Source of the DNA: Cupriavidus basilensis | Lineage (GTDB): Bacteria; Pseudomonadota; Gammaproteobacteria; Burkholderiales; Burkholderiaceae | Direction: 5' to 3' | Length of the DNA stretch: 64,000 nt | Assembly: GCF_000876015.1 (NCBI RefSeq) | Contig: NZ_BBQM01000004.1 | Location: 1 to 64,000 of the forward strand | Shown here: piece by piece, positions 30,666-57,189 of the stretch | How positions within the stretch are numbered: the stretch's first letter is position 1 | How the letters are laid out: every line of letters begins with the position of its first letter | The notes under the pieces: model-generated | What the model was told of the DNA's origin: nothing | The model's database searches: none | Seen by the model: the letters and a program-made list of their open reading frames with translations, nothing else | Program-made: the position numbers and the translations under genes

Positions 30666-32176
30666 TCAAGCGACTCGCCACCGACCGCCCCGATGAACTG
30701 CTGCTGGCCCGCCGCAAATGGCTGGCGCAGTGCCTCAAGGCCGGCGCCGGCACCGTGGTGCTGACGCTGGCGGGACCGCAGATCGCCTTCGGCGCCGGCA
30801 TCGTCGCCGTGCGGGTCTGGCCCGCCGAGGAATACACCCGCGTCACCATCGAGTCCGACGCGCCGCTGGCCGCGGTGCACCAGATGGTGCACGGCCCCGA
30901 CCGCCTCGTGGTGGACATCGACGGCCTCGACCTGTCGCCCACGCTGCGCGAGCTGGTGGCCAAGATCACCTCCAACGACCCGTACATCCAGACCGTGCGC
31001 GTGGGCCAGAACCGGCCGCGCGTGGTGCGGCTGGTGTTCGACCTGAAGGAAGACGTCTCGCCGCAGGTGTTCACGCTGGCGCCGATCGGCAACTACCGCA
31101 ACCGCCTGGTGTTCGACCTCTACCCGGTCAACCCGCCCGACCCGCTGTGGAAGCTGGTGCGCGACACCGAGGACAAGCAGCGCCGCTTCGCCGCGGCGCA
31201 GCCGCCGGCCGGCGCGGACCGCGCCGACACCGTCTCCGGCGCGCCCGCCACCGGCGAGGAAGACGCCATCGGCGCGCTGGTGCGCCGGTTCGAGGACAAG
31301 GGCGCCAACCCGGTGCCGGCCATGCCGCCGATGGCCGCGATCCGGCCCCGGCCGCCCGCGCCTCAGGCCGCGCCGTCCGCCCAGTCCGCGCCGCCGCTGG
31401 CGCAGAACGGCGCGCCGCCGGCGCTGCCCGCCAACAATCCGCCCGTCGACCGCCCGTTCAAGATGCGCCGCCTGCTGACGGTGGCCATCGACCCGGGCCA
31501 CGGCGGCGAGGACCCGGGCGCCACCGGCGCGGCCGGCTCGCGCGAGAAGGATGTGGTGCTGCAGATCGCCCACCGCCTGCGCGCCAAGATCGACGCCCAG
31601 CCCAACATGCGCGCCATGATGACGCGCGACGCGGACTTCTTCGTGCCGCTCAACGTGCGCGTGCAGAAGGCGCGCCGCGTGCAGGCCGACCTGTTCGTGT
31701 CGATCCACGCCGATGCCTTCCTGTCACCGGAGGCCAAGGGCGCGTCGGTGTTCGCGCTGTCCGAGCGCGGCGCCTCGAGCAGCGCCGCGCGCTGGATGGC
31801 CAACAAGGAAAATGCCTCCGACCTGATCGGCGGCGCCAACATGGGCAACAAGGACGCCCAGGTCGCGCGCGTGCTGCTGGACCTGTCGACCACCGCGCAG
31901 ATCAACGACAGCCTGCAGGTCGGCAAGGCCGTGCTGTCGGAGATCGGCGGCATCAACCGCCTGCACAAGGGCAGCGTGGAGCAGGCCGGCTTCGCCGTGC
32001 TGAAGGCGCCGGACATCCCCTCGATCCTGGTCGAGACCGCCTTCATCAGCAACCCGGAGGAAGAGCGCAAGCTCAACGACGAAGCCCACCAGGAGCAACT
32101 GGCCAACGCCATCCTGCGCGGCATCCGCAACTACTTCGCGCGCAATCCGCCGCTGTCGAAGAACCCGTCGGTGTAA
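30659..32176 (+). CDS. amiC: N-acetylmuramoyl-L-alanine amidase AmiC
   Basis: This periplasmic zinc amidase splits daughter-cell peptidoglycan. The N-terminus carries a twin-arginine leader (ARRKWLAQ at 17-24 then a hydrophobic stretch), as for Tat-exported AmiC. An AMIN septum-targeting domain follows (about 48-150), then a Pro/Ala-rich linker and the Amidase_3 domain from about residue 273: AIDPGHGGEDPGA, REKDVVL, FVSIHADAF and VETAFISN supply the zinc ligands and catalytic glutamate. The start overlaps tsaE. The vgrG island begins just downstream. Confidence 0.95.
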   Translation: MLIKRLATDRPDELLLARRKWLAQCLKAGAGTVVLTLAGPQIAFGAGIVAVRVWPAEEYTRVTIESDAPLAAVHQMVHGPDRLVVDIDGLDLSPTLRELVAKITSNDPYIQTVRVGQNRPRVVRLVFDLKEDVSPQVFTLAPIGNYRNRLVFDLYPVNPPDPLWKLVRDTEDKQRRFAAAQPPAGADRADTVSGAPATGEEDAIGALVRRFEDKGANPVPAMPPMAAIRPRPPAPQAAPSAQSAPPLAQNGAPPALPANNPPVDRPFKMRRLLTVAIDPGHGGEDPGATGAAGSREKDVVLQIAHRLRAKIDAQPNMRAMMTRDADFFVPLNVRVQKARRVQADLFVSIHADAFLSPEAKGASVFALSERGASSSAARWMANKENASDLIGGANMGNKDAQVARVLLDLSTTAQINDSLQVGKAVLSEIGGINRLHKGSVEQAGFAVLKAPDIPSILVETAFISNPEEERKLNDEAHQEQLANAILRGIRNYFARNPPLSKNPSV

Positions 32177-32192
32177 GGCGGCGTCCCCCCGG

Positions 32193-32221
32193 AAAGCAGA
32201 ACGGCCGGCAAATGCCGGCCG
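32193..32221. repeat. left copy of 29-bp direct repeat flanking the vgrG island
   Basis: This 29-base sequence is identical to 45430-45458. It holds the left arm and most of the right arm of a terminator hairpin (ACGGCCGGCA...TGCCGGCCG) but the hairpin is cut short here, whereas at the right copy it is a complete 15-bp stem. It lies 16 bp after the amiC stop. Confidence 0.75.
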
Positions 32222-32256
32222 CGGGTCGCTGACGAGTTTTCCGGTGACGAGGGTTT

Positions 32257-32288
32257 GCTACTCTCTCCCGCTTGCGGGAGAGAGTAGC
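32257..32288. repeat. perfect 15-bp stem hairpin, REP-like
   Basis: GCTACTCTCTCCCGC and its complement flank a 2-base loop, with TTTGC/GCAAA words on the outside. It resembles the GGGAGAGGGGAGCAAA family seen at 4881 and 26032, and sits just inside the left edge of the island. Confidence 0.55.
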
Positions 32289-32432
32289 CCGCAAATTTGG
32301 CCTATTATCAGGGTTGCAGGCACTGTAATTTATTGATTTATATGGATTTATAGTGAACGTCATTGCAACCGCTGTAAAACGCAGTGTCGAAAAATTGTCC
32401 CACGGTTTGTAGACAAGTCGGGAGCCTACCCG

Positions 32433-32644
32433 ATGAAGAACCTGACTGAACGCCAATACCGCACCTGCCCGATGGAACACATCGCGTGGCGCCTTCCCTC
32501 TATCTGATTGATGGTGTGTGACCGTACCGCATCGGTTACGCCGACGCGATGTGCGCCTGCATCCAGGTTACGCTCGAAGGCGACTCCGTCAACGTCGAGC
32601 CCTGGGACGTACTGGGCTACCTGTGCGAGTGCCGGGCGCACTGA
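32433..32644 (+). pseudogene. remnant of a small coding region
   Basis: A frame opens at 32433 (MKNLTERQYRTCPMEHIAW) and stops after 24 codons. A second frame continues the protein-like text and ends GYADAMCACIQVTLEGDS... VLGYLCECRAH, but has an in-frame TGA at 32519 and needs a shift to join the first. This looks like a decayed small gene at the left end of the island; I do not recognise the family. The remaining gap (32289-32432 and 32645-32981) shows no convincing gene and is AT-richer than the surroundings. Confidence 0.35.
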
Positions 32645-32981
32645 GCGACTGTCGTTTGCACCCCACGCATTGTGAAAAACTGCAACGTGTGGCGGCATTC
32701 CCTATGCACTCATTCGACGCGCATGTCCTTACCATTGGGCATCCTGGCATGAATTCAATTTCTTTTAATTCCGATTCCTGAATTTCATCGCGCATTTCAG
32801 GAATCGTCTGATTTACCGCCAGACGCCCTTTTCGTAGCATTCCACACGTATTGATACATCGTGATTGCGAGCACAACGATAGCCTCGCAAGATAGCCGGT
32901 CATTGACTGACTGCGACCGCGAATGTCCAACCTGGCACGAAGCACCAAGCCTAACGGTCTGGCGAAACGGAGTGAACAACG

Positions 32982-35309
32982 ATGGCAGAGGGTTTTGCTG
33001 AATTCAAGGCAATCGGTGCTCAGACGCTTAACGTGCTGACCACGGGGCGCCAAGCGTATCACATCGAAGTACCAGGGACCGCAAGTGCCGCCGTGCTGTC
33101 GGTGGTGTCCTTTGAGGCGGTGGAGCGGATGGGCGAGCCCTACACTGTCACCATCCAGCTCACGCACCCGCTGGTACTCGACCGAGCCGACTACCTCAAC
33201 CGCGACGCCACTTTCCTGATTGACCCCGCCGATGGCAGCGAGCCGCGCAAGTTCGCCGGCTGTATCACGCACTTCAGCGAAACCCGGCAGACCCGCGACT
33301 TTTGCGGCTACGAGATCGTAGTCGAGCCGCTGGTTGCACGCCTCAAGCTCACACGTGCCAGCCGTATCTACCAGCAGCAGACCGCGCCGCAGATCATCGA
33401 GGCAATCTTGCGCCGCCATGACCTCAAGGGCCATCAGTTCGTCTTCAAGACGCGACGCAAGTATCCGCAGCACGCCTTCCGCATGCAATATGGTGCCTCG
33501 GACTGGGACTATATCCGGCTGCTGATGGAGCAGGAGGGCCTGTACTGCTATTTCACCCCGGGGAAGTTCGGCGAGATGATCGTGTTCGGCGACGACATCG
33601 ACCACTATCTCTACCAGCCGGAACTGCGCGTGCTGTACCGCGAGACGGCGGGACTGGAGTCGGGCCAGGAGACGTTGTTCTCAATCAAGACCCATGCCAA
33701 GACGATCCCCGAATCGTTCCGGGTGGCGGACTTCAATCCCGACAAGGCGTGGGAGCGCCCCACCGGCGAGGCCAACGTCGCACGCCAGGAGAAGACCACT
33801 TACGGCCAGTCCTATGTCTACGGCACGCACCACCTAGACTTCGATGATGCCAAGTGGGAAGCGGGGTTGCGCCATGAGGCGAAGTACGCCGAACAGCTAG
33901 TTTACGCGGGCGAGAGCAACGTGCTGGCGCTGTGTCCGGCATGCATCCTGCGCGTGGATCTGGCGCTGCCCGACGCGCCCAACGGCCACGTCATCACCGA
34001 GGTCATCCACACGGGCGCCCGCGACGCCGCCTACCGCAATACCTACAAGGCCATTCCGTCCGACCGGCGTTTCCGCTTGCCGCTGAACGAGGCCAACTGG
34101 CCGCGTATTGCCGGCACGCTAAGTGCCCGCATCACCTCGCCGGGGGAGTACAAGTATGCCTACCTAACGCAGCAGGGTCAGTACATCGTCCGCTTCGATT
34201 TTGACTTTGACGAATGGCCCAACGGCGGCGAGAGCGTGCCGCTATGGCTCGCAAAGCCGTTCGCGGGGGCGCAGCAGACGGGATTTCACTTCCCGCTGAT
34301 CGACGGTACCTACGTGGACGTGGCCTTTCGCGACGGGAACCCGAACAAGCCGTATATCGCGCACGTCCAGCACAACAGTCAGCACACGGACCTGATCACC
34401 AATCAGGATCGGTGGCTGTCGCGCAACGTCATACATACGCAGAGCAATAACAAGCTGCGCTTCGAGGACTGGGAGGGCCAGGAAGGCATCAAGCTGTCCA
34501 CCGAGTACGGTGGCAAGACCCAGTTGAACCTCGGTCATCTGGTTGACAGCAAGAAGAAGCAGCGCGGGGAAGGCTTTGAGCTCCGCAGCAATCTGAAAGG
34601 GACGGTCCGGGGCGGACGCGGCTTGCTGTTCACAGCTTGGACGCAGCCAGCCAGCACCCCGCAGACGGAAATGGTGGCGGCCATGAACGAAATGCGCTCG
34701 ATCTTGGCTCAGGCGCAGGGATTGGGGAACGCGGCCAGTCAATCCAAAGCGGAGATCGCCGACTTGAAGGCGGAGAACGCATGGTTGCGCGATAGTCTCA
34801 ACGACCTCAAACAGGCAGTCATGATGCTGGCGGCCCCAAATGGGGTGGCCATCACGACACCGGACCGGGTATCGCTTGCTGCCGGGCGAGATGTGAACGT
34901 TGCCACCAAGGCGGGCTTCAACGTCAGCGCCATTGCAAAGATTGCGATTGCTGCTGGCGATGCGTTGTCGCTGTTTGCCTCAAGACTCGGGATCAAGATC
35001 TTGGCCGCGAAGGGCAATGTCGAAATCCAGGCGCAGACCGATGGTCTGGATCTCTATGCGGACAAGCAGGTGCATATCGCCAGCGCCAACGCGGATGTGC
35101 TGATCAACGCGAGCAAGAAGGCCGTTCTGGCGAGCGGCGGCGCCTGCGTGAAGATCGAGAACGGTAGTGTTGAAATCATCTGTCCGGGCAACTTCAAGAT
35201 CAAGGCCGCTTCCTTCAAGTTCGAAGGTCCAGGCAATCAGTCTCTGCCAGTGCCGTCGCTGCCGAAAAGCCGCCTGAAGGTCCCCAATCAGTACATCTCG
35301 TCGAACTAA
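32982..35309 (+). CDS. vgrG: type VI secretion spike protein VgrG (TssI)
   Basis: VgrG trimers form the tip of the T6SS puncturing device and carry effectors. The 775-residue protein has the gp27-like region (SFEAVERMGEPYTVTIQL, WDYIRLLMEQEGLYCYF), a gp5-like OB region (PRIAGTLSARITSPGEYKYA, GTYVDVAFRDGNPNKPYIAHVQHNSQHTD) and a C-terminal DUF2345 beta-helix with repeated short strands (IAIAAGDALSLFASRLGIKI). A coiled-coil-like stretch lies around residues 570-615. The ATG at 32982 agrees with homologous N-termini as I remember them. It heads the island operon; the effector gene starts 2 bp after its stop. Confidence 0.95.
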   Translation: MAEGFAEFKAIGAQTLNVLTTGRQAYHIEVPGTASAAVLSVVSFEAVERMGEPYTVTIQLTHPLVLDRADYLNRDATFLIDPADGSEPRKFAGCITHFSETRQTRDFCGYEIVVEPLVARLKLTRASRIYQQQTAPQIIEAILRRHDLKGHQFVFKTRRKYPQHAFRMQYGASDWDYIRLLMEQEGLYCYFTPGKFGEMIVFGDDIDHYLYQPELRVLYRETAGLESGQETLFSIKTHAKTIPESFRVADFNPDKAWERPTGEANVARQEKTTYGQSYVYGTHHLDFDDAKWEAGLRHEAKYAEQLVYAGESNVLALCPACILRVDLALPDAPNGHVITEVIHTGARDAAYRNTYKAIPSDRRFRLPLNEANWPRIAGTLSARITSPGEYKYAYLTQQGQYIVRFDFDFDEWPNGGESVPLWLAKPFAGAQQTGFHFPLIDGTYVDVAFRDGNPNKPYIAHVQHNSQHTDLITNQDRWLSRNVIHTQSNNKLRFEDWEGQEGIKLSTEYGGKTQLNLGHLVDSKKKQRGEGFELRSNLKGTVRGGRGLLFTAWTQPASTPQTEMVAAMNEMRSILAQAQGLGNAASQSKAEIADLKAENAWLRDSLNDLKQAVMMLAAPNGVAITTPDRVSLAAGRDVNVATKAGFNVSAIAKIAIAAGDALSLFASRLGIKILAAKGNVEIQAQTDGLDLYADKQVHIASANADVLINASKKAVLASGGACVKIENGSVEIICPGNFKIKAASFKFEGPGNQSLPVPSLPKSRLKVPNQYISSN

Positions 35310-35311
35310 CC

Positions 35312-37699
35312 ATGATCATCAGTCCTCCGTTCTTGCCCGCCAATGGTCTGACATCCGACGATCCACTCAAGCCCGATCCGATGATGGACGCAGTCGATGG
35401 CTTTGAATTGCCCCATCACGGCGTCTATCCGGTTGCCTTTGACCGTCGCTGGCACTGCGGTGTTCATCTTATGCCCAACTATCAGAATGAGGCGGTGCGT
35501 GCCATTGCCGATGGGGAGGTGGTGGCCTACAGGGTTGCGCAAAAAGCGATTTGCGACGGACAAACGGACGATCACGGTGCCGATGCATTGAATTCCAATA
35601 CGGGCTTTGTGCTGCTCAAGCACAAGACCGAGACGGGGGAAGGACGGAGCCTTACCTTCTATTCCTTGTATATGCACTTGCTGGATGTCGATAGTCTCCA
35701 GCCTGTGATAGGGGCACCAAATCTCCCGGAAGTCGGGTCTTCATCCGCGATGGCCAAGTGGTTGGCGGATGACACCAATGGCGTGCAAACTCCCGTCAAT
35801 AAGAAGGTATATCGAAAGGACATCCTCGGTTACTACGGAAAATGCCACGGTCAGTCGCACCTGCACTTCGAAATCTTCATGACGGAGGAAGATTTCACTG
35901 CGTGGTTCGATCAGATCGGGCACACCGTTCAACTGGGCAACCAGACCCCCGCGACACCGGATTCGAAAGACTACTGGGGGCACAGTTACTTTGTGATTCC
36001 AACCGGGCAGACCTTTTACAGTACGCCACCCGACCAGGTAGCCCATGCTGCCTATTTTCCCGAGAAGCAGTCGGGAATACTTACGGAGGGAAATCTGTAT
36101 GTCGAGGCGTACTTCCACAAGGGCCAGCGCTACACGCGCTCCTGGCTAGAAAAGGACGGTTCGCTGACCTGCTTGACCGGCGACCAGCCGGTTCAAGACC
36201 CGTTTCAAAATTACGAGTACACGCTGTATGACCGGGCGACCACCTTATATCCGGCACGCCCGAGCGATGGCTATGAGTTGATGCGTTTCGGCCGCATTTT
36301 GAGCGACCATTCATCCCTTCCAGTTGCGCCCCAAACGACATGGATGGCAGTGACGTTCGAATCAGGCAAACAGGGCTATATCGATATCAGCCAGGATGCG
36401 GTGCAGAAGTTGTCCGATGCGGATTTCCCGTTCTTCATGGGCTGGCAGAAGATCGAGGAGGGAAATACACCATTCAGTGAAGATGGTCTGTGCGATTACG
36501 ATGCGCTGCGCAAGATCGTCAATGATGTGGAAGACCAGGAGACGCCACAGCAGCAACACGAGGCGACTGAGTATAAGCATGAAGATATCCTTTCCGCCTA
36601 CGTTCAGGGCAACGATTCAGTGCGCAAGGCGCTCAGGGGCTTTGTTTGCCTTGCCCCCAGCGAGTGGGATGCCACCGGCAACGAGGTGCGTTACAGGCGT
36701 CTGAAGGATCCGGATGGCTTCTTTGGCAAGCGCAAGGACATCGACCCCAACGGGTACGACAAATTCATCGCGTTTCACACGCAATTGCAGTTTCTGGAGA
36801 AGACCGCACTGGGCGGCGGCAAGAAATTCTGGTTCTTCCACCCTCTGGCGTTCATCGGGCATTTCAGGAAGTGTAGTTGGCTGGCGAAGCGGGAGATCTA
36901 TCAATTAGTTCCGGCAAAAATCGTCCGAAAACCTGGGTCGCATAATTTCCCAAGTCAAAGTTATTTCGAGACCGTACCGCTTAACAGGCCTTTTATTAAC
37001 AAGCACTACACTGAACTTAATAATGCATTGCGAAAATATTTAATAACATCATCAATAAGGCAGGCTTGTTTTTTTGGGAATTCCACGCAAGAAACAGGAT
37101 GGTTTCGAGATCTCAGGGAATCCGGTGGGGCAACCCCAAATCTTCACGCTGGATGGTATGGTCGTGGATTTTTGCAGTTAACCAATCCAAATGGAAATTT
37201 AAATGGTGGAAATAATAACTACTATAAATATTTTAAATTCATGGGGCGCCATCCGGAAACTCCTGCAAATGTGCAAGAGATTGCGTGGAGAGATGAACTT
37301 GGAGTAAATTCATTCCACGCAAGCCAAAGTGCTGGCGCCTATTGGATTTGGTCAAAAAAATCAGCACCTACCGAGCAAAATCCCAATCGACCTCAAGTGG
37401 ACAGTGCTAACACTTACGCCGATGATGTCGCCATCGTTATGGGCAACCAGCGTCGCACCGTGAATACAGATCATGGGCCCAAAATTTGGTACTACAATCA
37501 GTTATTTACGAATTGTGCTACAGCAGTGAATTACCCTGGCGCAACCGGGCAAAATCCACCCAACATGAATGGCTTGATTGATCGATCTACCTCTTTCGCG
37601 AATGCAGTGGTGATTCTGTGCGATGGCCACCCGTTTCCGGCACAAGATGGCGCACAAAATTTAACTCCTGAAATTTTTGAAAGGAGAAGTGATCTATGA
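35312..37699 (+). CDS. T6SS effector: M23-like plus GH19/lysozyme-like peptidoglycan hydrolase
   Basis: This 795-residue protein directly follows vgrG. The N-terminal part (about 30-200) resembles M23/LytM endopeptidases: WHCGVHL (His48), YSLYMHL and HGQSHLHFEI (His183, His185). The position normally held by the second zinc ligand (Asp in HxGxD) is His52. After a spacer (200-540), the C-terminal part (about 558-795) resembles GH19 chitinase/lysozyme folds: QETGWFRDL with putative catalytic Glu594, then YGRGFLQLT (616-624). Both halves would attack peptidoglycan. From about position 36895 the DNA becomes AT-rich, so the hydrolase tip is of different origin from the N-terminal part. It overlaps the next gene by 4 bp. 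Confidence 0.8.
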   Translation: MIISPPFLPANGLTSDDPLKPDPMMDAVDGFELPHHGVYPVAFDRRWHCGVHLMPNYQNEAVRAIADGEVVAYRVAQKAICDGQTDDHGADALNSNTGFVLLKHKTETGEGRSLTFYSLYMHLLDVDSLQPVIGAPNLPEVGSSSAMAKWLADDTNGVQTPVNKKVYRKDILGYYGKCHGQSHLHFEIFMTEEDFTAWFDQIGHTVQLGNQTPATPDSKDYWGHSYFVIPTGQTFYSTPPDQVAHAAYFPEKQSGILTEGNLYVEAYFHKGQRYTRSWLEKDGSLTCLTGDQPVQDPFQNYEYTLYDRATTLYPARPSDGYELMRFGRILSDHSSLPVAPQTTWMAVTFESGKQGYIDISQDAVQKLSDADFPFFMGWQKIEEGNTPFSEDGLCDYDALRKIVNDVEDQETPQQQHEATEYKHEDILSAYVQGNDSVRKALRGFVCLAPSEWDATGNEVRYRRLKDPDGFFGKRKDIDPNGYDKFIAFHTQLQFLEKTALGGGKKFWFFHPLAFIGHFRKCSWLAKREIYQLVPAKIVRKPGSHNFPSQSYFETVPLNRPFINKHYTELNNALRKYLITSSIRQACFFGNSTQETGWFRDLRESGGATPNLHAGWYGRGFLQLTNPNGNLNGGNNNYYKYFKFMGRHPETPANVQEIAWRDELGVNSFHASQSAGAYWIWSKKSAPTEQNPNRPQVDSANTYADDVAIVMGNQRRTVNTDHGPKIWYYNQLFTNCATAVNYPGATGQNPPNMNGLIDRSTSFANAVVILCDGHPFPAQDGAQNLTPEIFERRSDL

Positions 37700-38319
37700 T
37701 TAGGTTATTTATTTTTTCAGTGCTCGCCTTGATCTTTGGAATTTCGGGGGCGCAAACAGGCAATGATTCAAGAAAGGCGATAGCTAAACTTAGGGATAGC
37801 TGCGGTTATGAGGTCGGTCCATCAATCATCTCAAGAATCCATTCTTTCGACATAAAGGAGCTTGAGAAATCATCGGTTTTTGATTTTAACTTGTTGATTG
37901 ATGACGCTGGTCGGAAAATCCATGGACATCTTAGTTTCGGGTGCCATAAGGCTACATCGATCGAGAATATTGAATCAGGTGAAGTTAATTCAACTGCCAA
38001 CAGCAAGAAACATAACAACCTAACAGCAAAAGAAGAAATAGAGGCCGAAGACTTGGGGGGAAGATATGCGCGCATCGTCTCATGGCAACGAAATTATCGT
38101 GCGGATAATTTTGCGGGGACCATAGCTTACGTAAACAGTCTCTTCGGGGATGGTGAAAAGAGCGCGATACCAGAATATTTTCTTGTCTGCCCGGAAGTTC
38201 CTGGTTTTTCCTGTTTCTCAATGGAGATCGGAAATATTAATCGACTCACGAAGAATGAGGTTTTTTGTATTATCAATATACTTGAAGACTTAAAAATTAT
38301 TATTAATAATTCGAACTGA
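37696..38319 (+). CDS. predicted periplasmic immunity protein, first of a diverged pair
   Basis: No family is recognised. The 207-residue product has a signal peptide (MIRLFIFSVLALIFGISGAQ) and a Cys pattern (CGYEVG, SFGCHKA, LVCPEVPGFSCFS) ending in a helix-like LEDLKIII. The start is fixed by AAGGAG at 37681 and a 4-bp overlap (ATGA) with the effector stop. Direct coupling to a periplasm-acting effector and export to the periplasm are what an immunity protein needs; that role is an inference. The DNA is AT-rich. Confidence 0.65.
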   Translation: MIRLFIFSVLALIFGISGAQTGNDSRKAIAKLRDSCGYEVGPSIISRIHSFDIKELEKSSVFDFNLLIDDAGRKIHGHLSFGCHKATSIENIESGEVNSTANSKKHNNLTAKEEIEAEDLGGRYARIVSWQRNYRADNFAGTIAYVNSLFGDGEKSAIPEYFLVCPEVPGFSCFSMEIGNINRLTKNEVFCIINILEDLKIIINNSN

Positions 38320-38325
38320 TCTCCA

Positions 38326-39018
38326 ATGCATTCGCCTATCCGATTGACGAAATTGATTATTAGGCTTTGTATTGCAGGCTTGATGGCCACACCATCAATC
38401 GGTACTGCCGCTGTGGAGAACTCGCCTCCGAATTTGCTCAAACAAACAACGACAGCAGAACATGTTGTCGGCCCATGCCGCTTCAGGATTGCCAACATGT
38501 TTGGAGGGGAATTCCGGGAGGCTCACCCTGATAGCTCTCCACCCCAACAGGGCTCATATTACCTACCGATAACTGGACCGTCATCCTTTCTGACTGGAGG
38601 CTTCGGTTTATTCTGTGTGGAAGCCAATGAAGAGAGGATTACTTCCTCCCTGAATGGGAAGTATGTTGATGGTCGCTGGTGGACGTACGGACCCGTCGAT
38701 GGCCCTGAATTTGTTCCATACGAGGAACAGGCGAAGGCTCGAACAATCCCACTAAAGGAAAAAAACTGGACTGGAATTACCTATACCGAAGATGCCACTA
38801 CGGGTGACGAACGAACGCAGGCTCGTGTTTTTCATTTCTGCCTTGTCCGCGATGCCCGTGCATTGTGTGGATACACGGTTGTCGAATGGCTGGCAGACCG
38901 CAAAGGGCGCAATGACCTTGACCGGATCAAGGCAATTCTTGAGTCTGTCGAGTTTGTTGATACCCCGTTGCCGGCTGGTGGCAGTGCCACATCTAGCGTA
39001 ACAAAAATTGAAAAATAA
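38326..39018 (+). CDS. predicted periplasmic immunity-like protein, second of a diverged pair
   Basis: This 230-residue protein has an N-terminal hydrophobic signal and the same order of landmarks as its upstream neighbour: an early CRFRI, a GLFCVEA strand, FHFCLVRDARALCGY, and a C-terminal DRIKAILESVEF helix. This suggests the two are diverged paralogues. It starts 6 bp after its neighbour. The Shine-Dalgarno sequence is weak. A broader-spectrum or duplicated immunity role is inferred from position. Confidence 0.6.
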   Translation: MHSPIRLTKLIIRLCIAGLMATPSIGTAAVENSPPNLLKQTTTAEHVVGPCRFRIANMFGGEFREAHPDSSPPQQGSYYLPITGPSSFLTGGFGLFCVEANEERITSSLNGKYVDGRWWTYGPVDGPEFVPYEEQAKARTIPLKEKNWTGITYTEDATTGDERTQARVFHFCLVRDARALCGYTVVEWLADRKGRNDLDRIKAILESVEFVDTPLPAGGSATSSVTKIEK

Positions 39019-39055
39019 AACAGAAATCGCAATTATGGAGGTGGCACTCTAGATC

Positions 39056-39532
39056 ATGAAAGAAATACTATCATTTTGGATGTTATGGCTATCAATCGCA
39101 TGCTGCAATGCCAAAACTGGGCAGGAGATTAAATTCAGCCCAACCCCGGGAGTAGTCGCGGTCATAGCTATCGATGGCAATCTGGTCTCCATAAATATCT
39201 GTGGTGGAAGGAAATGCAATAATACTGAGGGCAACCTTTATGTTGGTAATCCAGGTAGCGTTAATTTGGGGGTCGGCGATTATAATTTCGACGGTAATAC
39301 CGATTTTTCGCTATGGTATCTGGATGAGGGGAAGGGTACCTATACAATCCATAGGATATTTCTTTTTTCTAAAAGTGCGGGGAGATTTGGTGAGTACTTG
39401 CCGGCGTGCGGTGATGAGTTTGTTAACCTGAAAGTGGACAAGAAAAATAGGAGGCTAATTAGCACATATTGGGCTGACAATGAGCCGAAAGTGTGTTTCA
39501 CATATCCACAAGAGAACCACAACGGAAAATGA
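39056..39532 (+). CDS. predicted periplasmic immunity protein, XAC2610-like
   Basis: This 158-residue protein has a short signal peptide (SFWMLWLSIACCNA) and a DYNFDGNTDF segment, a calcium-loop/FG-GAP-like motif typical of the XAC2610 family. In Xanthomonas, XAC2610 is the periplasmic inhibitor of XAC2609, a secreted lysozyme with a GH19-type domain, which fits the C-terminal domain of the effector encoded just upstream. GGAGGTGG at 39037-39044 supports the start. Its stop overlaps the PAAR start by 4 bp. Homology is judged from the motif and length only. Confidence 0.6.
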   Translation: MKEILSFWMLWLSIACCNAKTGQEIKFSPTPGVVAVIAIDGNLVSINICGGRKCNNTEGNLYVGNPGSVNLGVGDYNFDGNTDFSLWYLDEGKGTYTIHRIFLFSKSAGRFGEYLPACGDEFVNLKVDKKNRRLISTYWADNEPKVCFTYPQENHNGK

Positions 39533-39789
39533 AATCCCCCATCCGTCTCGGTGACGCCCTGGAAGACGGTGGCCAGGTCACCAGCGCCTCGCCCACCATG
39601 GAATTCATGGGTCGCCCGCTCGCCCGCAAGGGCGATGCTGCCCTATGCGCCCGTCACGGTCCGACCACAATTGCCGAAGGCGACGACGGCTTTCCCGATC
39701 AGGATGGCAAGCCCGTGGCGATGCACCGCCACTGCTGCGCCTGTGGTTGCCGCCTGATCTCGTCGCTGCTGAATGTCCATATCGCTTGA
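39529..39789 (+). CDS. PAAR-domain T6SS spike-tip protein
   Basis: This 86-residue protein caps the VgrG spike. It has the PAAR-like start SPIRLGDALEDGGQVTSASP, LARKGDAALCARHGPTTI and the metal-site residues near HRHCCACGC. DNA composition returns to GC-rich here. The start at 39529 overlaps the preceding stop by 4 bp; an upstream in-frame start at 39493 lies inside that gene. Confidence 0.9.
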   Translation: MKSPIRLGDALEDGGQVTSASPTMEFMGRPLARKGDAALCARHGPTTIAEGDDGFPDQDGKPVAMHRHCCACGCRLISSLLNVHIA

Positions 39790-39792
39790 TGT

Positions 39793-41061
39793 ATGCCGAT
39801 TGATTTGACGCCAGCGGCGGCGGCCAGGCCTTACCCGAAGCAAGGCCCACGACTGGTGCCATGGCTTCTTATCTGGGTCGCGTTCGCTACGCTCGGGGCG
39901 GCACTCGTCATTCTCTTTTGGCCGGTCAGTTGGCCCGCCAAAGGGTTCGGTTTCTGGTTCTGCGCCGCCGGCATCCCCAGTCTGGCCTACTTGCTGGCGC
40001 TCTCGCTGGTTCGCCTTCCCTTCGAATTACACTGGTTTCGTGCTTATGGCGACAACGTCGTCCGGCAGGAGTGGAAGGACAAGAAACAAGTCCAGGCGCA
40101 ACAGCCGCTGCAAGTGCTGGGGATCGGGTACTGCCTGCCCGTCGGCGGTCAGACTCTCGCTAGCGTCGTCGCGGCTGGGCAGTCCGTGCAGAAGGCGCAG
40201 AAGGCGCGCAAAGGGCCAAGCATGGTCGTGCACAGCCGGTTTGACGAGGGTAATGTGTCAGACCTCCCGGTGGCCCATTCCTTTGCGGATAACGAAGCTC
40301 AAGAAGCAGAAAGCCGGCAGGTGGCTACTGTGACGCTCAAGATCGGCGAAGCGCTGGTCCCCCTCGCAGCAAGTCTGACGGCGCTATCGCAGTATGGACC
40401 AGTATTCGCGCCGGTCGTCCGCGTGCTTGCCCGCGACGAGGTGGCCAGCTTGCGGTTGCAGCAGGTGCGGGACGCGCTGGCACAAGCGGGTTTGTCTCAG
40501 CTCGAATGCCGGACTGAGCCAGTTTCCGACCGCCTCATGGTGGCCGATGCCTGGCTAGACGCGCGTGACCGCCGCCCCCTGCTGGTGGTCGCGGTCGAAT
40601 GGTACGAGCAGGACCCGCCGGCTGGCAGCACCGAAGGTTGCGTCGCCGTGCTGCTCAATGCCGGCTACTACAAGGTGCCAGAGCCCGTCACGGTTCTCGG
40701 GAAGCTCCATCGTCCGCTGAAGGGCGAAGCCCGCGCCCTGGACCATCTACTCATGAATGCCCTGAAGTGGGGACGTACGGAGTCGGCAGCGGTGCAGCAG
40801 GCCTGGATTTCCAGCCCCGACAGCGATCACGACAGGGCGTGGCCGACGGCTTGCAAGGCCGCTACGCTTGAGCGTATCGCGCAGACCGAAGCTCAACACC
40901 GTCTGGATCGGCTGGTGGGAAACGCTGGCCTCATCAATGCGTGGATGTCCATCGCGGCGGCCGTCGAGTCGCACGCACAAGGCCCCCAACTCATCGTGGA
41001 CGGCAACCAGGCCGCCATTCTTTACGTCTTTCCTTCTGTCCATGACGACACCGACCAATAA
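39793..41061 (+). CDS. T6SS-island membrane protein of unknown function
   Basis: This 422-residue protein has two N-terminal transmembrane helices (about 21-43 and 51-73) and a large soluble remainder with no domain I can name. It starts 3 bp after the PAAR gene and overlaps the TssM-like gene by 20 bp, so it is translationally tied to the spike cluster. Such genes occur beside orphan IcmF-like genes in Burkholderiaceae vgrG islands. A role in effector loading or in a membrane complex with the downstream protein is possible but unproven. Confidence 0.7.
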   Translation: MPIDLTPAAAARPYPKQGPRLVPWLLIWVAFATLGAALVILFWPVSWPAKGFGFWFCAAGIPSLAYLLALSLVRLPFELHWFRAYGDNVVRQEWKDKKQVQAQQPLQVLGIGYCLPVGGQTLASVVAAGQSVQKAQKARKGPSMVVHSRFDEGNVSDLPVAHSFADNEAQEAESRQVATVTLKIGEALVPLAASLTALSQYGPVFAPVVRVLARDEVASLRLQQVRDALAQAGLSQLECRTEPVSDRLMVADAWLDARDRRPLLVVAVEWYEQDPPAGSTEGCVAVLLNAGYYKVPEPVTVLGKLHRPLKGEARALDHLLMNALKWGRTESAAVQQAWISSPDSDHDRAWPTACKAATLERIAQTEAQHRLDRLVGNAGLINAWMSIAAAVESHAQGPQLIVDGNQAAILYVFPSVHDDTDQ

Positions 41062-54148: not shown

Positions 54149-54769
54149 TCAGGCGCGGCGCTGCGGCAGGATGGCGTCGAGGAACGCCGTGGCGCGGAAT
54201 TCCAGCTCGGCCACGTAGTCGTCCACGCGGCGGCGGAAATAGCGCCAGAAGATCAGCGCCGGAATCGCGATGATCAGGCCGAAGGCGGTGTTGTACAGCG
54301 CCACCGAGATGCCGTGCGCGAGCTGCTCGGGGCTGGCGCCGGCGCCGCCCTGGCTGCCGAAGATCTCGATCATGCCGATCACCGTGCCCAGCAGGCCCAT
54401 CAGCGGCGCCACCGAGGCGATGGTGCCGAGCGCGTTGAGATAGCGCTCCAGCTCGTGCGCCACCGCGCGGCCGGCTTCTTCGACCACTTCCTTGGCGGCG
54501 TCGCGCGAGGTGTGGGGCTGCAGCACGACGTGGCGCAGGCCGGCCGCCAGCACGCGGCCCAGCGGCGAGTTCTGCTCCAGGGTGCTCACCACCTCGGGCG
54601 TGGCGCGGCGCTGGTGCGCCACCGTCAGCGCTTCCTCGTACAGCTTGGGCGGCAGCACCTTGCTGCGCTTGAGGCTCAGGAAGCGCTCGACGATCAGCGC
54701 CAGGGCGATGACCGAGGCGATCAGCAAGGGCCAGATCGGCCAGCCGGCCGCTTGAATGATGGAAAACAC
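54149..54769 (-). CDS. exbB: biopolymer transport protein ExbB/MotA/TolQ
   Basis: This 206-residue protein has three transmembrane helices: WPIWPLLIASVIALALIVERF, then the long IASVAPLMGLLGTVIGMIEIF and ALYNTAFGLIIAIPALIFW pair that forms the proton channel with ExbD. The GTG at 54769 (protein begins FSIIQAAG) is chosen because the usual ExbB N-terminus starts there; an upstream ATG at 54940 would add unrelated Arg-rich sequence that runs into the first repeat unit. Confidence 0.9.
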   Translation of the reverse strand: MFSIIQAAGWPIWPLLIASVIALALIVERFLSLKRSKVLPPKLYEEALTVAHQRRATPEVVSTLEQNSPLGRVLAAGLRHVVLQPHTSRDAAKEVVEEAGRAVAHELERYLNALGTIASVAPLMGLLGTVIGMIEIFGSQGGAGASPEQLAHGISVALYNTAFGLIIAIPALIFWRYFRRRVDDYVAELEFRATAFLDAILPQRRA

Positions 54770-54933
54770 GTGGAACCCCGAAATTCGACGGCTTGTCTGC
54801 ACGCCAGCCGCCGCAGCCGCACGCGCGCTGGCTCTGTATTGAAAAATCAGGCGCCACTCTAACCCGCGGCATGGCGGCGCGGCAAGACGCCATGCCGCGG
54901 TGTCTCGGCGGCGCATCGCCGCGCCGCGCGGGA

Positions 54934-55046
54934 TGTCCACACAGGACAGGGACAGCGTTGTGGATGGATTGTGGACAGCTATCTGACAAGCCGGTCAACG
55001 TCTTGATTCGAAAGGGAAAACAATCGCCAGCCTAAAAAACGGGCAG
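54934..55046 (+). repeat. 113-nt iterated non-coding unit, copy 1
   Basis: The first of four units aligning without gaps. It begins TGTCCACA, has GTTGTGG at columns 24-30 and TTGTGGACA at 36-44, TTGATT at 70-75, and ends AAAAAACGGGCAG at 101-113. Confidence 0.7.
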
Positions 55047-55107
55047 CGCGCCTGTGACGCCGGCGACCCGCCGGCGCCGCGCCGGCACGCGCGGCCAGGT
55101 TTCGGGC

Positions 55108-55220
55108 TGTCCACATAAAGGCAGGACAGTGTTGTGGAGCGGTTGTGGACAGTTGCCTGAAAACACAGCTAAGTCATTGATTCGGCAGCGGCTTCCCGTG
55201 GCTGCTCAAAAAACGGGCAG
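55108..55220 (+). repeat. 113-nt iterated non-coding unit, copy 2
   Basis: Gap-free with copy 1, sharing TGTCCACA, GTTGTGG, TTGTGGACA, TTGATT and AAAAAACGGGCAG at the same columns, plus TAAGTCATTGAT (63-74) shared with copy 3. Confidence 0.7.
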
Positions 55221-55290
55221 AGAGAGCCCGGCAGCACTTGGGCGCGCCGTCAGGGGGAGGAATCCGAAAAACTTCCGCCATGTCGACCGC

Positions 55291-55403
55291 TTTCCACATT
55301 CGTCCGGGACAGTCTTGTGGACGGGTTGTGGACAACTGCCGGAGAAGCGAGCTAAGTCATTGATAACAAAGGCCGGAATCCGGCATGCCCAAAAAATGGG
55401 CAG
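55291..55403 (+). repeat. 113-nt iterated non-coding unit, copy 3
   Basis: Gap-free with copies 1 and 2: TTGTGGACA at 36-44, GCTAAGTCATTGAT at 61-74 and AAAAAATGGGCAG at 101-113; the first word is TTTCCACAT. Confidence 0.7.
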
Positions 55404-55551
55404 CAGCCGGGCAGGCCGGTTTCCGGGGTGCCCGGCGCGATTCCGAGTGAATATGGTTTATGCACCACTTTTGATGGTCTTTACATCGTGTTTACGGTTT
55501 ACCCACAGCCGGCGGACGGGCGGCCGCCAATCTATCCACAGGCACGGGCCG

Positions 55552-55664
55552 TCCGGCAAGGTTGTCCAGAGTTCCTGTGGATAACTTTGTGAACAAGCCG
55601 GGGGCGCAGCCGGTAAGTCGTTGACGCATAAGGGGTTTGCTTACATTGCTCAAAAAATAAGACA
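55552..55664 (+). repeat. 113-nt iterated non-coding unit, copy 4 (most diverged)
   Basis: The columns still align: TTGTGAACA at 36-44, TAAGTCGTTGA at 63-73 and AAAAAATAAGACAG at the end. This copy contains an exact DnaA-box match where the others have a TTGTGG word. Confidence 0.55.
55576..55584 (-). promoter_or_regulatory. consensus DnaA box
   Basis: TGTGGATAA is the complement of TTATCCACA, an exact DnaA-box match. One-mismatch boxes lie nearby at 55499-55507 (TTACCCACA) and 55532-55540 (CTATCCACA). A role in DnaA binding is an inference. Confidence 0.45.
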
Positions 55665-55803
55665 GCAGAAACTACATAAGAATCAAAGGCTTGTGTCAAG
55701 TCATGCGGCTTTGCGGGTCGACGGGCCGCCCCCCGCCAAGAGACTTGACAGAGCGGTTATGCTGTGGACATGTCAATTCCACGCCGCATGCCCGGCTGCG
55801 CCC

Positions 55804-57189
55804 ATGTCTGAATCGCTGAACTTTTCGCGTGAATCCCAGCCTGCGGCGCCCGCGGGCGGCCGCGAAGCCATCCCCGTCGGCGAGCTCAACCACGCCATTT
55901 CCCAGGTGCTCGAACGCAATTTCCCGCTGCTCTGGGTAAGGGGAGAAATCTCCAATTTCACCCGCGCCGCCAGCGGGCACTGGTACTTTTCGCTCAAGGA
56001 TGCGCGCGCGCAGATCCGCTGCGTGATGTTCCGCGGGCGCAACCAGCATGTCGGGTTCGTGCCGCGCGAGGGCGAGGCGGTGGAAGTCCGGGCGCTGGTG
56101 TCGATGTACGAGGCGCGCGGCGAGCTGCAGCTCGGCGTGGAAGCCATGCGCCGCGCGGGCCTCGGCAATCTCTACGAAGCCTTCCTGCGCCTGAAGGAGA
56201 AACTCGCGCAGGCCGGCCTGTTCGCGCCCGAGCGCAAGCGCCCGGTGCCGGCCCATCCGCGCGCCATCGGCGTGGTGACGTCGCTGCAGGCCGCCGCGCT
56301 GCGCGACGTGCTCAGCACCCTGCGCCGGCGCGCGCCGCACGTGCCGGTGGTGGTCTATCCGGTGCCGGTGCAGGGCGCGGGCGCCGCCGAGAAGATCGCC
56401 GCGATGATCGACACCGCCAGCGCGCGCAACGAATGCGACGTGCTGATCCTGTGCCGCGGCGGCGGCAGCATCGAAGACCTGTGGTCGTTCAACGAGGAAT
56501 GCGTGGCGCAGGCCATCGCGCGCTGCGCCGTGCCGCTGGTGTCGGGCGTGGGCCACGAGACCGATTTCACCATCGCCGATTTCGTCGCCGACGTGCGCGC
56601 GCCCACCCCCACCGGCGCCGCCGAGCTGGTCAGCCCCGACCGCGCCCACATGCTGATGCAGGCCCTGCGCGCGCGCAACGCGCTGGCCCAGTGCATGCAG
56701 CGCCAGCTCGACCGCCGCGCCCAGGGCCTGGACTGGCTGGCGCGCCGCCTGCGCAGCCCGCAGGCGCAGTTGCAGGAGCGCCGCCTGCAGGTCGACAACC
56801 TGATGCGGCACCTGCGCAGCGCGCTGCGCGACACCGTGGCCGCGCGCCGCCACCAGCAGCAGGTGCTGGCCATGCGCTGGGCCGCCGGCCGCCCCGACCT
56901 GGCGGCGGCCCAGGCCGAACTGCGCCGCGTCGCGCTGCGCATGGGCGATGCCGCGCGCCGCCAGCACGAGCGCGCCGGGCAGCGCTGGCAGCGCGCCGCC
57001 GGCGCGCTGGAACTGCTGGCGCCGCAGCGCACGCTCGAGCGCGGCTACGCCGTGCTGCTCGACCAGCGCGGCCACGCGCTGCGCTCGCCGGCCGAGCTGC
57101 GCGCCGGCACCACCATCGAGATCCACCTGGCCGAAGGCGTGGCCGACGCCGGCATCGCCAGCGTCCAGCCGCGCCTGGGCGAGGTGTAG
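55804..57189 (+). CDS. xseA: exodeoxyribonuclease VII large subunit
   Basis: XseA forms the nuclease that degrades single-stranded DNA together with XseB. The N-terminal OB fold ([23 protein letters not shown]-like) is followed by the catalytic domain ([52 protein letters not shown]) and a helical C-terminal region. The start at 55804 (461 aa) agrees with the family; the frame upstream reaches into repeat copy 4. xseB is not adjacent. Confidence 0.95.

Follow-up and report, generated by a model that had tools for sequence, protein, structure and literature searches.

The gap between a TolQ/ExbB-type gene, encoded on the minus strand, and xseA in Cupriavidus basilensis contains four clusters of DnaA-type boxes, and the cluster closest to xseA, unit 4, is a DARS-type core by the orientation and spacing of its boxes. 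Judged from sequence and its conservation, the locus is probably a DnaA-reactivating site of the DARS type, with a likelihood of about 0.65; in Cupriavidus and Ralstonia, it would have been enlarged by three modules that each have an additional box-step. The kind of element is already known. DARS-like sequences occur in many proteobacteria (review, PMC10380432), and the available passages of PMC4245941 and PMC8682772 describe the DARS2 core and its dependence on Fis in gammaproteobacteria related to E. coli. What is new, among the open-licence papers listed in the searches, are betaproteobacterial DARS-type loci, a layout with Fis before IHF, and arrays, as no description of any of these was found there. 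The available sections of two Cupriavidus genome papers, including PMC2864759, place DnaA boxes at origins and on plasmids and do not name xseA. The window, which is the whole stretch of 64,000 nucleotides that was analyzed, supplies the coordinates collected in Table 1; the array extends to 870 nt upstream of xseA.

Table 1. Features of the TolQ/ExbB-type gene to xseA gap and its flanks, in window coordinates.
Feature	Position	Strand	Remarks
TolQ/ExbB-type proton-channel gene	54149..54772	-	upstream flank; TIGR02796 5.7e-26, under the model's cut-off
Module 1	54933..55044	+	from the letters and conservation in 35 genomes (third module of one genome degenerate)
Module 1 box I	54933-54941		ATGTCCACA
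Module 1 GGGACAG motif	54947-54955
Module 1 direct DnaA boxes	54959-54967, 54970-54978
Module 1 IHF site	54996-55008	-
Module 1 Fis-type site	55030-55044
Module 2	55107..55218	+
Module 2 box I	55107-55115
Module 2 GGACAG motif	55121-55129
Module 2 direct DnaA boxes	55133-55141, 55144-55152
Module 2 IHF site	55170-55182	-
Module 2 Fis-type site	55204-55218
Module 3	55290..55401	+
Module 3 box I	55290-55298
Module 3 GGGACAG motif	55304-55312
Module 3 direct DnaA boxes	55316-55324, 55327-55335
Module 3 IHF site	55353-55365	-
Module 3 Fis-type site	55387-55401
Additional DnaA-like box	55532..55540	+	CTATCCACA; starts 30 nt before unit 4 core
Unit 4 DARS-type core	55562..55596	+	box spacing as in E. 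coli DARS1 and DARS2 cores
Unit 4 box I	55562-55570		TTGTCCAGA
Unit 4 box II	55576-55584		TGTGGATAA; head-to-head with box I
Unit 4 box III	55588-55596		TGTGAACAA
Unit 4 weak Fis-like site	55648..55662	+	one mismatch; +86 from core start
Unit 4 IHF site	55681..55693	+	AATCAAAGGCTTG; +119 from core start
TGTGGA box	55763..55768	+	GCTGTGGACAT; 41 nt upstream of xseA start
xseA (exonuclease VII large subunit)	55804..57189	+	downstream flank; TIGR00237 match G000:C59:55876-57150

Unit 4 holds three DnaA boxes whose starts lie 14 and 12 nt apart, with boxes I and II head-to-head, and reads TTGTCCAGA-N5-TGTGGATAA-N3-TGTGAACAA. The head-to-head arrangement of boxes I and II is characteristic of DARS and functionally essential (PMC10380432). 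Sites were scored against the DnaA, IHF, and Fis consensus sequences given in passages of PMC4585315 and PMC4245941. The gap was extracted from 35 genomes with a BLAST match, namely the present one (G000) and 34 of 35 sampled relatives of the same genus; the remaining relative, G012, is 54% complete and gave no match. All 35 genomes carry the unit 4 core, 27 at 2 and eight at 3 of 24 mismatches. In many genomes, the second-ranked match to the core is an opposite-strand reading of the same boxes, and these were left uncounted. All 35 likewise have a forward IHF site without mismatches, at +119 or +120. The Fis-like site of unit 4 is weak throughout the genus: the relaxed pattern is matched exactly in 8 of 35 genomes, and the strict pattern exactly in none and with one mismatch in 33. 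In 16 of the 35, TCCACA occurs no more than 40 nt before the core. Between unit 4 and xseA is a TGTGGA box (GCTGTGGACAT) that could, from its sequence, link DnaA to xseA expression.

The E. coli MG1655 stretches used for comparison are presumably datA, DARS1, and DARS2; they were identified by gene neighborhood and boxes in records that carry no such labels. DARS2, beside mutH, reads TTATTCACC-N5-TGTGGATAG-N3-TGTGAAGAA, and DARS1, in the bioD-uvrB gap, reads TTATCCACT-N5-TGTGGATAA-N3-TGTGTATTA. DARS1 has the same 14/12 core as unit 4, at 2 of 24 mismatches to the DnaA consensus, but its bioD-uvrB gap is without an exact IHF consensus. With DARS2, unit 4 has in common the three-box core, the head-to-head boxes I and II, the 14 and 12 nt between starts, and an IHF site and a Fis site (in unit 4 a weak Fis-like one) no more than about 160 nt from the core start (DARS2 as described in passages of PMC4245941). 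The order of the sites differs. In E. coli DARS2, the core is followed by IHF at +109 (one mismatch; another, on the other strand, at +93) and then by Fis at +145, whereas in unit 4 it is followed by the weak Fis-like site at +86 and then by IHF at +119, so that Fis comes before IHF. The present locus also has four modules instead of one and a different gene neighborhood.

The three other clusters are of a second type. An earlier note on this DNA had described four like units that align without gaps; its positions for units 1-3 are right and the gapless alignment was reproduced, but its fourth copy is a different unit, with the middle box one base out of register, no GGGACAG, and a different box set. 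Common to copy 4 and units 1-3 are DnaA boxes and an A-run. In each of modules 1-3, a reverse DnaA box (box I) is followed by two direct DnaA boxes, an IHF site, and a Fis-type site in fixed geometry: 26 nt from box I to the first direct box, 11 nt between the direct boxes, and, counted from box I, a reverse-strand IHF site at +63 and a Fis-type site at +97. This arrangement, too, departs from that of DARS2.

Stacking the modules of the 35 genomes by geometry gave 105 units, including the degenerate third unit of G016, which was placed by hand. With the T of TCCACA as column 0, the near-invariant columns are TCCACA at 0-5 (with T at -2), GGACAG at 14-19, TGTGGA at 23-28, TGTGGANA at 34-41, GANA at 49-52, [TC]AANNNNTTGAT[AT] at 60-72, and GNN[CT][AG]-AT5-[CT][AG]NNC at 94-108. 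Columns 60-72 are the IHF consensus on the reverse strand, exact in 59 of 105 units and with at most one mismatch in 102, around 33 different NNNN fillers. Columns 94-108 are of Fis type, the relaxed pattern GNNYRWWWWWYRNNC being exact in 76 units and the strict form GNNYANNNNNTRNNC in 48; at other offsets of modules 1-3, the IHF and Fis patterns occur 0 or 1 times. Two words that the earlier note had called conserved are real but belong to larger sites: TAAGTCATTGAT is most of the IHF site on the opposite strand, and AAAAAACGGGCAG is most of the Fis-type site, which begins four bases earlier. The description of variable filler at fixed spacing holds as well, the conserved columns being the consensus positions of DnaA, IHF, and Fis. 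Of the six exact IHF matches in the 64 kb, units 1-3 contain three and a fourth lies at 55681, against 0.17 expected.

The box content of modules 1-3 separates them from unit 4. Across the 105 units, median mismatches to the DnaA consensus are 1 for box I and 2 and 1 for the direct boxes, compared with a background of 5.8. Position 45 has a median of 4. Position 11 has a median of 5, and the GGGACAG motif that stands at this would-be box place is therefore not a DnaA box. No DnaA box was found at the box II position of modules 1-3 (median 5 mismatches, background 5.8), so these modules do not have a DARS core in the strict sense.

Small RNAs in tandem, or an RNA with a conserved structure, had been offered as another explanation of the repeats, and the inverted repeat TCCACA/TGTGGA in each unit speaks for it. 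The TCCACA/TGTGGA pair is in fact the only consensus helix, but 0 of 630 cells in the 105 units are changed on both sides, and the fold z-scores, calculated for 35 of the 105, are near zero (medians -0.82 and -0.22). An Rfam scan of the window returned 0 matches, and the columns that are conserved are those expected from the DnaA, IHF, and Fis consensus sequences. Neither compensatory changes nor a stable conserved fold was found, and an RNA is extremely improbable. A coding function was also rejected, with at least one stop in every frame over 660 nt in 32 of 35 genomes and an open frame in three.

A search of the complete 7.8 Mb genome for the module geometry, TCCACA-N17-TGTGGA-N5-TGTGGA, gives three matches, always at this locus, and neither BLAST nor the exact pattern found unit copies elsewhere in it. 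Of 60 genomes of the genus, 58 have the geometry, among them all 54 of good quality, and the two without it are 54% and 78% complete; 57 genomes have exactly three copies and one, of good quality, has two. A backward control pattern has no match in the same 60 genomes. The place before xseA was verified in 35 genomes, of which 34 have three exact units and G016 has two. The units are thus kept in the genus with their conserved columns, where the earlier note's reading would have fallen with units absent from close relatives or lacking such columns. A mobile or plasmid repeat was ruled out, the plasmid collection being without a near match. Among 399 genomes of the order, the exact unit pattern is found in four, three of them from this genus and one a lone match. 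Among the matches listed (80 of at least 118), the exact form adjoins xseA or the TolQ/ExbB gene in records of Cupriavidus, Ralstonia, and a Burkholderiaceae bacterium, and the remaining matches are mostly single. The Ralstonia- and Burkholderiaceae-titled loci have the Cupriavidus form, with 15 modules by exact geometry; in all 15, the IHF site is within one mismatch (exact in two) and so is the Fis-type site.

Homologous arrays occur in another family. In eight genomes of family f8, the gap between the TolQ/ExbB-type gene and xseA holds 5-7 cores, 46 in total at no more than 3 mismatches to the relaxed core; a ninth genome, G042, was seen and left out of the count. Box II is present in these array cores. 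With up to one mismatch allowed, a reverse-strand IHF site lies at +51/52 in 38 of the 46, a Fis-type site at +84/85 in 24, and both in 22. The IHF site at +52 (reverse) and that at +119 (forward) are mirror images about the Fis site at +85. The f8 arrays and the Cupriavidus modules agree in two distances, 25-26 nt between the last direct box and IHF and 33-34 nt between IHF and Fis. We infer from this that each Cupriavidus module is a DARS module carrying about 12 nt more inside, one protomer step. Judged by the f8 arrays, with box II and the same distances, modules 1-3 look like reworked DARS modules.

Modules 1-3 could also work in the other direction, by inactivating or sequestering DnaA. 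In this rival, a datA-like hydrolysis site or titration sink, ATP-DnaA would oligomerize on the direct boxes with the aid of IHF and thereby lower the free or ATP-bound pool. The modules have no head-to-head boxes I and II at the DARS spacing, and their direct boxes are 11 nt apart; according to passages of PMC8682772, intervals of 2-3 bp between boxes favor cooperative head-to-tail ATP-DnaA oligomers, which a box spacing of 11-12 nt fits. E. coli datA likewise pairs DnaA boxes with an IHF site. Its box positions and orientations differ from those here, however, and its box 2 - IHF - box 3 arrangement does not occur; the datA stretch comes no closer to a 14/12 core than 6 mismatches, compared with 2-3 for unit 4. 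Furthermore, datA is described with a single IHF site and without a named Fis site in the available part of PMC5742627, whereas most of modules 1-3 have a Fis-type site (76 of 105 exact). Unit 4 and the homologous f8 arrays are DARS-type cores, which speaks against an inactivating locus, and the rival is on balance unlikely. Titration of DnaA, as earlier suggested, is less likely than reactivation, the nearest match being the DARS family, and nothing observed hints at the segregation role suggested along with it. Modules 1-3 themselves might reactivate DnaA across a wider gap between head-to-head boxes, promote the hydrolysis of ATP-DnaA, or serve as a sink, and reactivation is placed first because unit 4 and the f8 arrays are DARS-type cores.

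The core of unit 4 is conserved far beyond the genus. A relaxed core pattern matched 334 of 399 genomes of the order, and its control matched in one genome. For the position of the core, xseA was located in 108 of 110 genomes, and the upstream stretch of one genome per family was taken for 49 families, with three stretches shortened by contig ends and with the f5, f8, f40, and f49 loci seen beforehand; eleven further fetched genomes were left out of this count. A 14/12 core in the sense of xseA is found upstream of it in 30 of 49 families at no more than 4 of 24 mismatches and in 36 at no more than 5. The 134 other spacings used as controls gave a mean of 0.51 families and a maximum of 14, the latter from near neighbors such as 14/14, and a core on the strand opposite to xseA is found in 1 of 49. 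At up to 5 mismatches, no core was found in 13 of the 49 families, two of these having stretches shortened by contig ends.

The accompanying sites recur along with the core. IHF sites with at most one mismatch lie at +118..+121 in 24 of the 36 core-bearing families and are absent there in 12; after shuffling, 5.2 families have such a site at any position at all. Fis sites in these families are most often at +85/+86, where the strict consensus is exact in 14 of 36 (together with IHF in 11) and absent in exact form in 22. Five Ralstonia- and Burkholderiaceae-titled loci have the core at 4 mismatches, with IHF at +120 in all four that reach far enough; the sixth, PBA, has only a poor core at 6 mismatches. 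In the class, a second core pattern matched 223 of 276 genomes, 3 of the 276 being from this order, and its control matched once. Among 28 class loci, all from other orders, IHF lies at +118..+122 in 14 and strict Fis at +86/+87 in eight. The common layout therefore differs from the E. coli one, in which both IHF matches of DARS2 precede Fis. The DnaA-box geometry, the IHF and Fis-type sites, and conservation across the order support the earlier suggestions of a bound nucleoprotein site and of a DnaA-dependent role in replication control, which the locus would probably have.

In another rival, DnaA, IHF, and Fis would regulate transcription at this locus and so tie xseA, or the TolQ/ExbB-type gene, to the replication cycle. 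The distance from the core to the beginning of the xseA match is about 190-470 nt in 36 of the 49 families, and 34 of 35 genomes of the genus retain the TGTGGA box some 42 nt ahead of xseA, the contig of the 35th (G006) ending near there. The array, however, extends as far as 870 nt from xseA, DARS1 and DARS2 of E. coli adjoin other genes, and cores with IHF at +118..+120 also lie beside priA (6 of 6 checked), so that transcriptional coupling is a rather improbable account.

A DARS would be expected on the dnaA replicon and away from oriC, and this is where the array lies. It is on the dnaA-bearing contig in 13 of 13 genomes of the genus examined (by hand arithmetic, with circularity assumed for G003); in 12 of them its distance from dnaA is about 570-770 kb, and in G023 about 1.0 Mb. 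The shared position may reflect no more than synteny. In G030, the array is at 572 kb and the skew switch near 3,835-3,845 kb of 3,928 kb, about 0.66 Mb apart; five consensus DnaA boxes (G030:C3; L361, L362) lie at 3,835.7-3,837.0 kb, about 92 kb from dnaA. In G042, a DnaA-box cluster (G042:C1; L372) at about 5,138 kb is followed by a noisier switch, about 49 kb before dnaA. These two clusters are likely the origins, away from dnaA, and no core at up to 4 mismatches was found in either. The available part of PMC2864759 places the skew switch of C. metallidurans CH34 about 90 kb from dnaA with a perfect DnaA-box cluster, and as the CH34 and G030 switches lie some 90 kb off, boxes upstream of dnaA need not be oriC. 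In the present genome, the dnaA-upstream boxes resemble the skew-switch clusters in being consensus DnaA boxes without a DARS core, their best 14/12 match having 9 of 24 mismatches. The window has no lasting GC-skew switch. The locus as oriC was ruled out, the array being far from the G030 skew switch and the skew-switch clusters having no core.

The distance from dnaA also recalls crtS of Vibrio cholerae, a replication-triggered signal for the second chromosome. A crtS-like role would suit the roughly 570-770 kb in 12 of 13 genomes, but the homologous f8 arrays include that of G042, which is a single 5.2 Mb contig, and the core is order-wide; such a role is very improbable.

Among trans-acting factors, DnaA, Hda, IHF-alpha, and a Fis homologue with 41% identity to E. 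coli Fis over 73 residues are encoded. All 10 genomes of the order that were searched have a Fis match, which in G090 contains two in-frame TGA. By contrast, a passage of PMC4245941 states that only gammaproteobacteria related to E. coli have Fis.

By analogy with E. coli work, ADP-DnaA would bind boxes I and II of unit 4 head-to-head, box III would steady the DnaA oligomer, and IHF, perhaps with Fis, would bend the DNA. ADP would then leave, and the released apo-DnaA would pick up ATP, so that ATP-DnaA would rise before initiation. In modules 1-3, the roughly 12 extra nucleotides between box I and the direct boxes, marked by GGGACAG, may amount to one DnaA-protomer step. As box II is lost, these modules may or may not release ADP on their own. 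By adding DnaA-IHF-Fis complexes at a single position some 0.6-0.8 Mb from dnaA, they may set how much DnaA is recharged when the position of the array is replicated.

A broader picture, for which the odds are somewhat short of even, is that DARS reactivation is class-wide and that its layout, unlike that of E. coli DARS2, is a possibly older one with the core, Fis at +86, and IHF at +119. In the betaproteobacterial order, xseA and often priA would be the preferred sites. Arrays of up to 7 modules in some lineages would act as an ATP-DnaA dosage dial, and Cupriavidus and Ralstonia would have a new module type in which the head-to-head boxes are one protomer step further apart and whose function may be reversed. 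Most of what is known about the resetting of DnaA from ADP to ATP comes from E. coli. The fixed gene neighborhood in most sampled families, the different order of Fis and IHF, and the arrays of 4-7 modules are natural variants for dissecting the parts of a DARS, and control of the DnaA cycle would become testable in a non-enteric bacterium with two chromosomes.

DARS-type cores also occur at other loci. The present genome has a second one at G000:C56:104411-104445 (L242), at 3 mismatches, beside priA and with an exact IHF site at +120, and in some other families the hemE-priA gap carries such cores. The six priA-side cores checked for IHF come from five genomes (five sites exact, one at one mismatch) and include one of the five cores of L237. 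Gene names were checked by profile at L242 (priA) and L249 (priA, hemE); by eye, the genes at L254, L258, and L237 are taken to be hemE/priA, and those at L239 and L256 parE, comM, and ABC-F. The hemE-priA gap of G030 has consensus boxes, and no core at up to 4 mismatches was found in it, which means that the second locus varies even within the genus. The distance between the priA-side gaps and the G030 and G042 skew-switch clusters is about 44-55 kb.

Several minor observations were made along the way. At L237 (G385:C6:401000-406500), from another family, a priA-like ORF is preceded by five DARS-like cores (0-4 mismatches), so that here the second locus, too, carries an array. Cores lie beside other genes at L239 (parE side), L256 (comM side), and L250-L253, which include genera of the window's own family. 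Of these, g27, g29, and g30 have cores at other places, with IHF at +119 in one of six examined (L256, beside the comM-like ORF). In the present genome, a DARS-like box trio at G000:C40:266211-266245 (L241) has one mismatch and is almost palindromic (TTATCCACACTTTGTGTGGATAA); it lies near a gene weakly similar to aromatic-pathway hydratases/decarboxylases. Within the window, G+C drops to 0.49-0.59 at 32001-40000, compared with about 0.65-0.75 around it, which suggests a foreign island.
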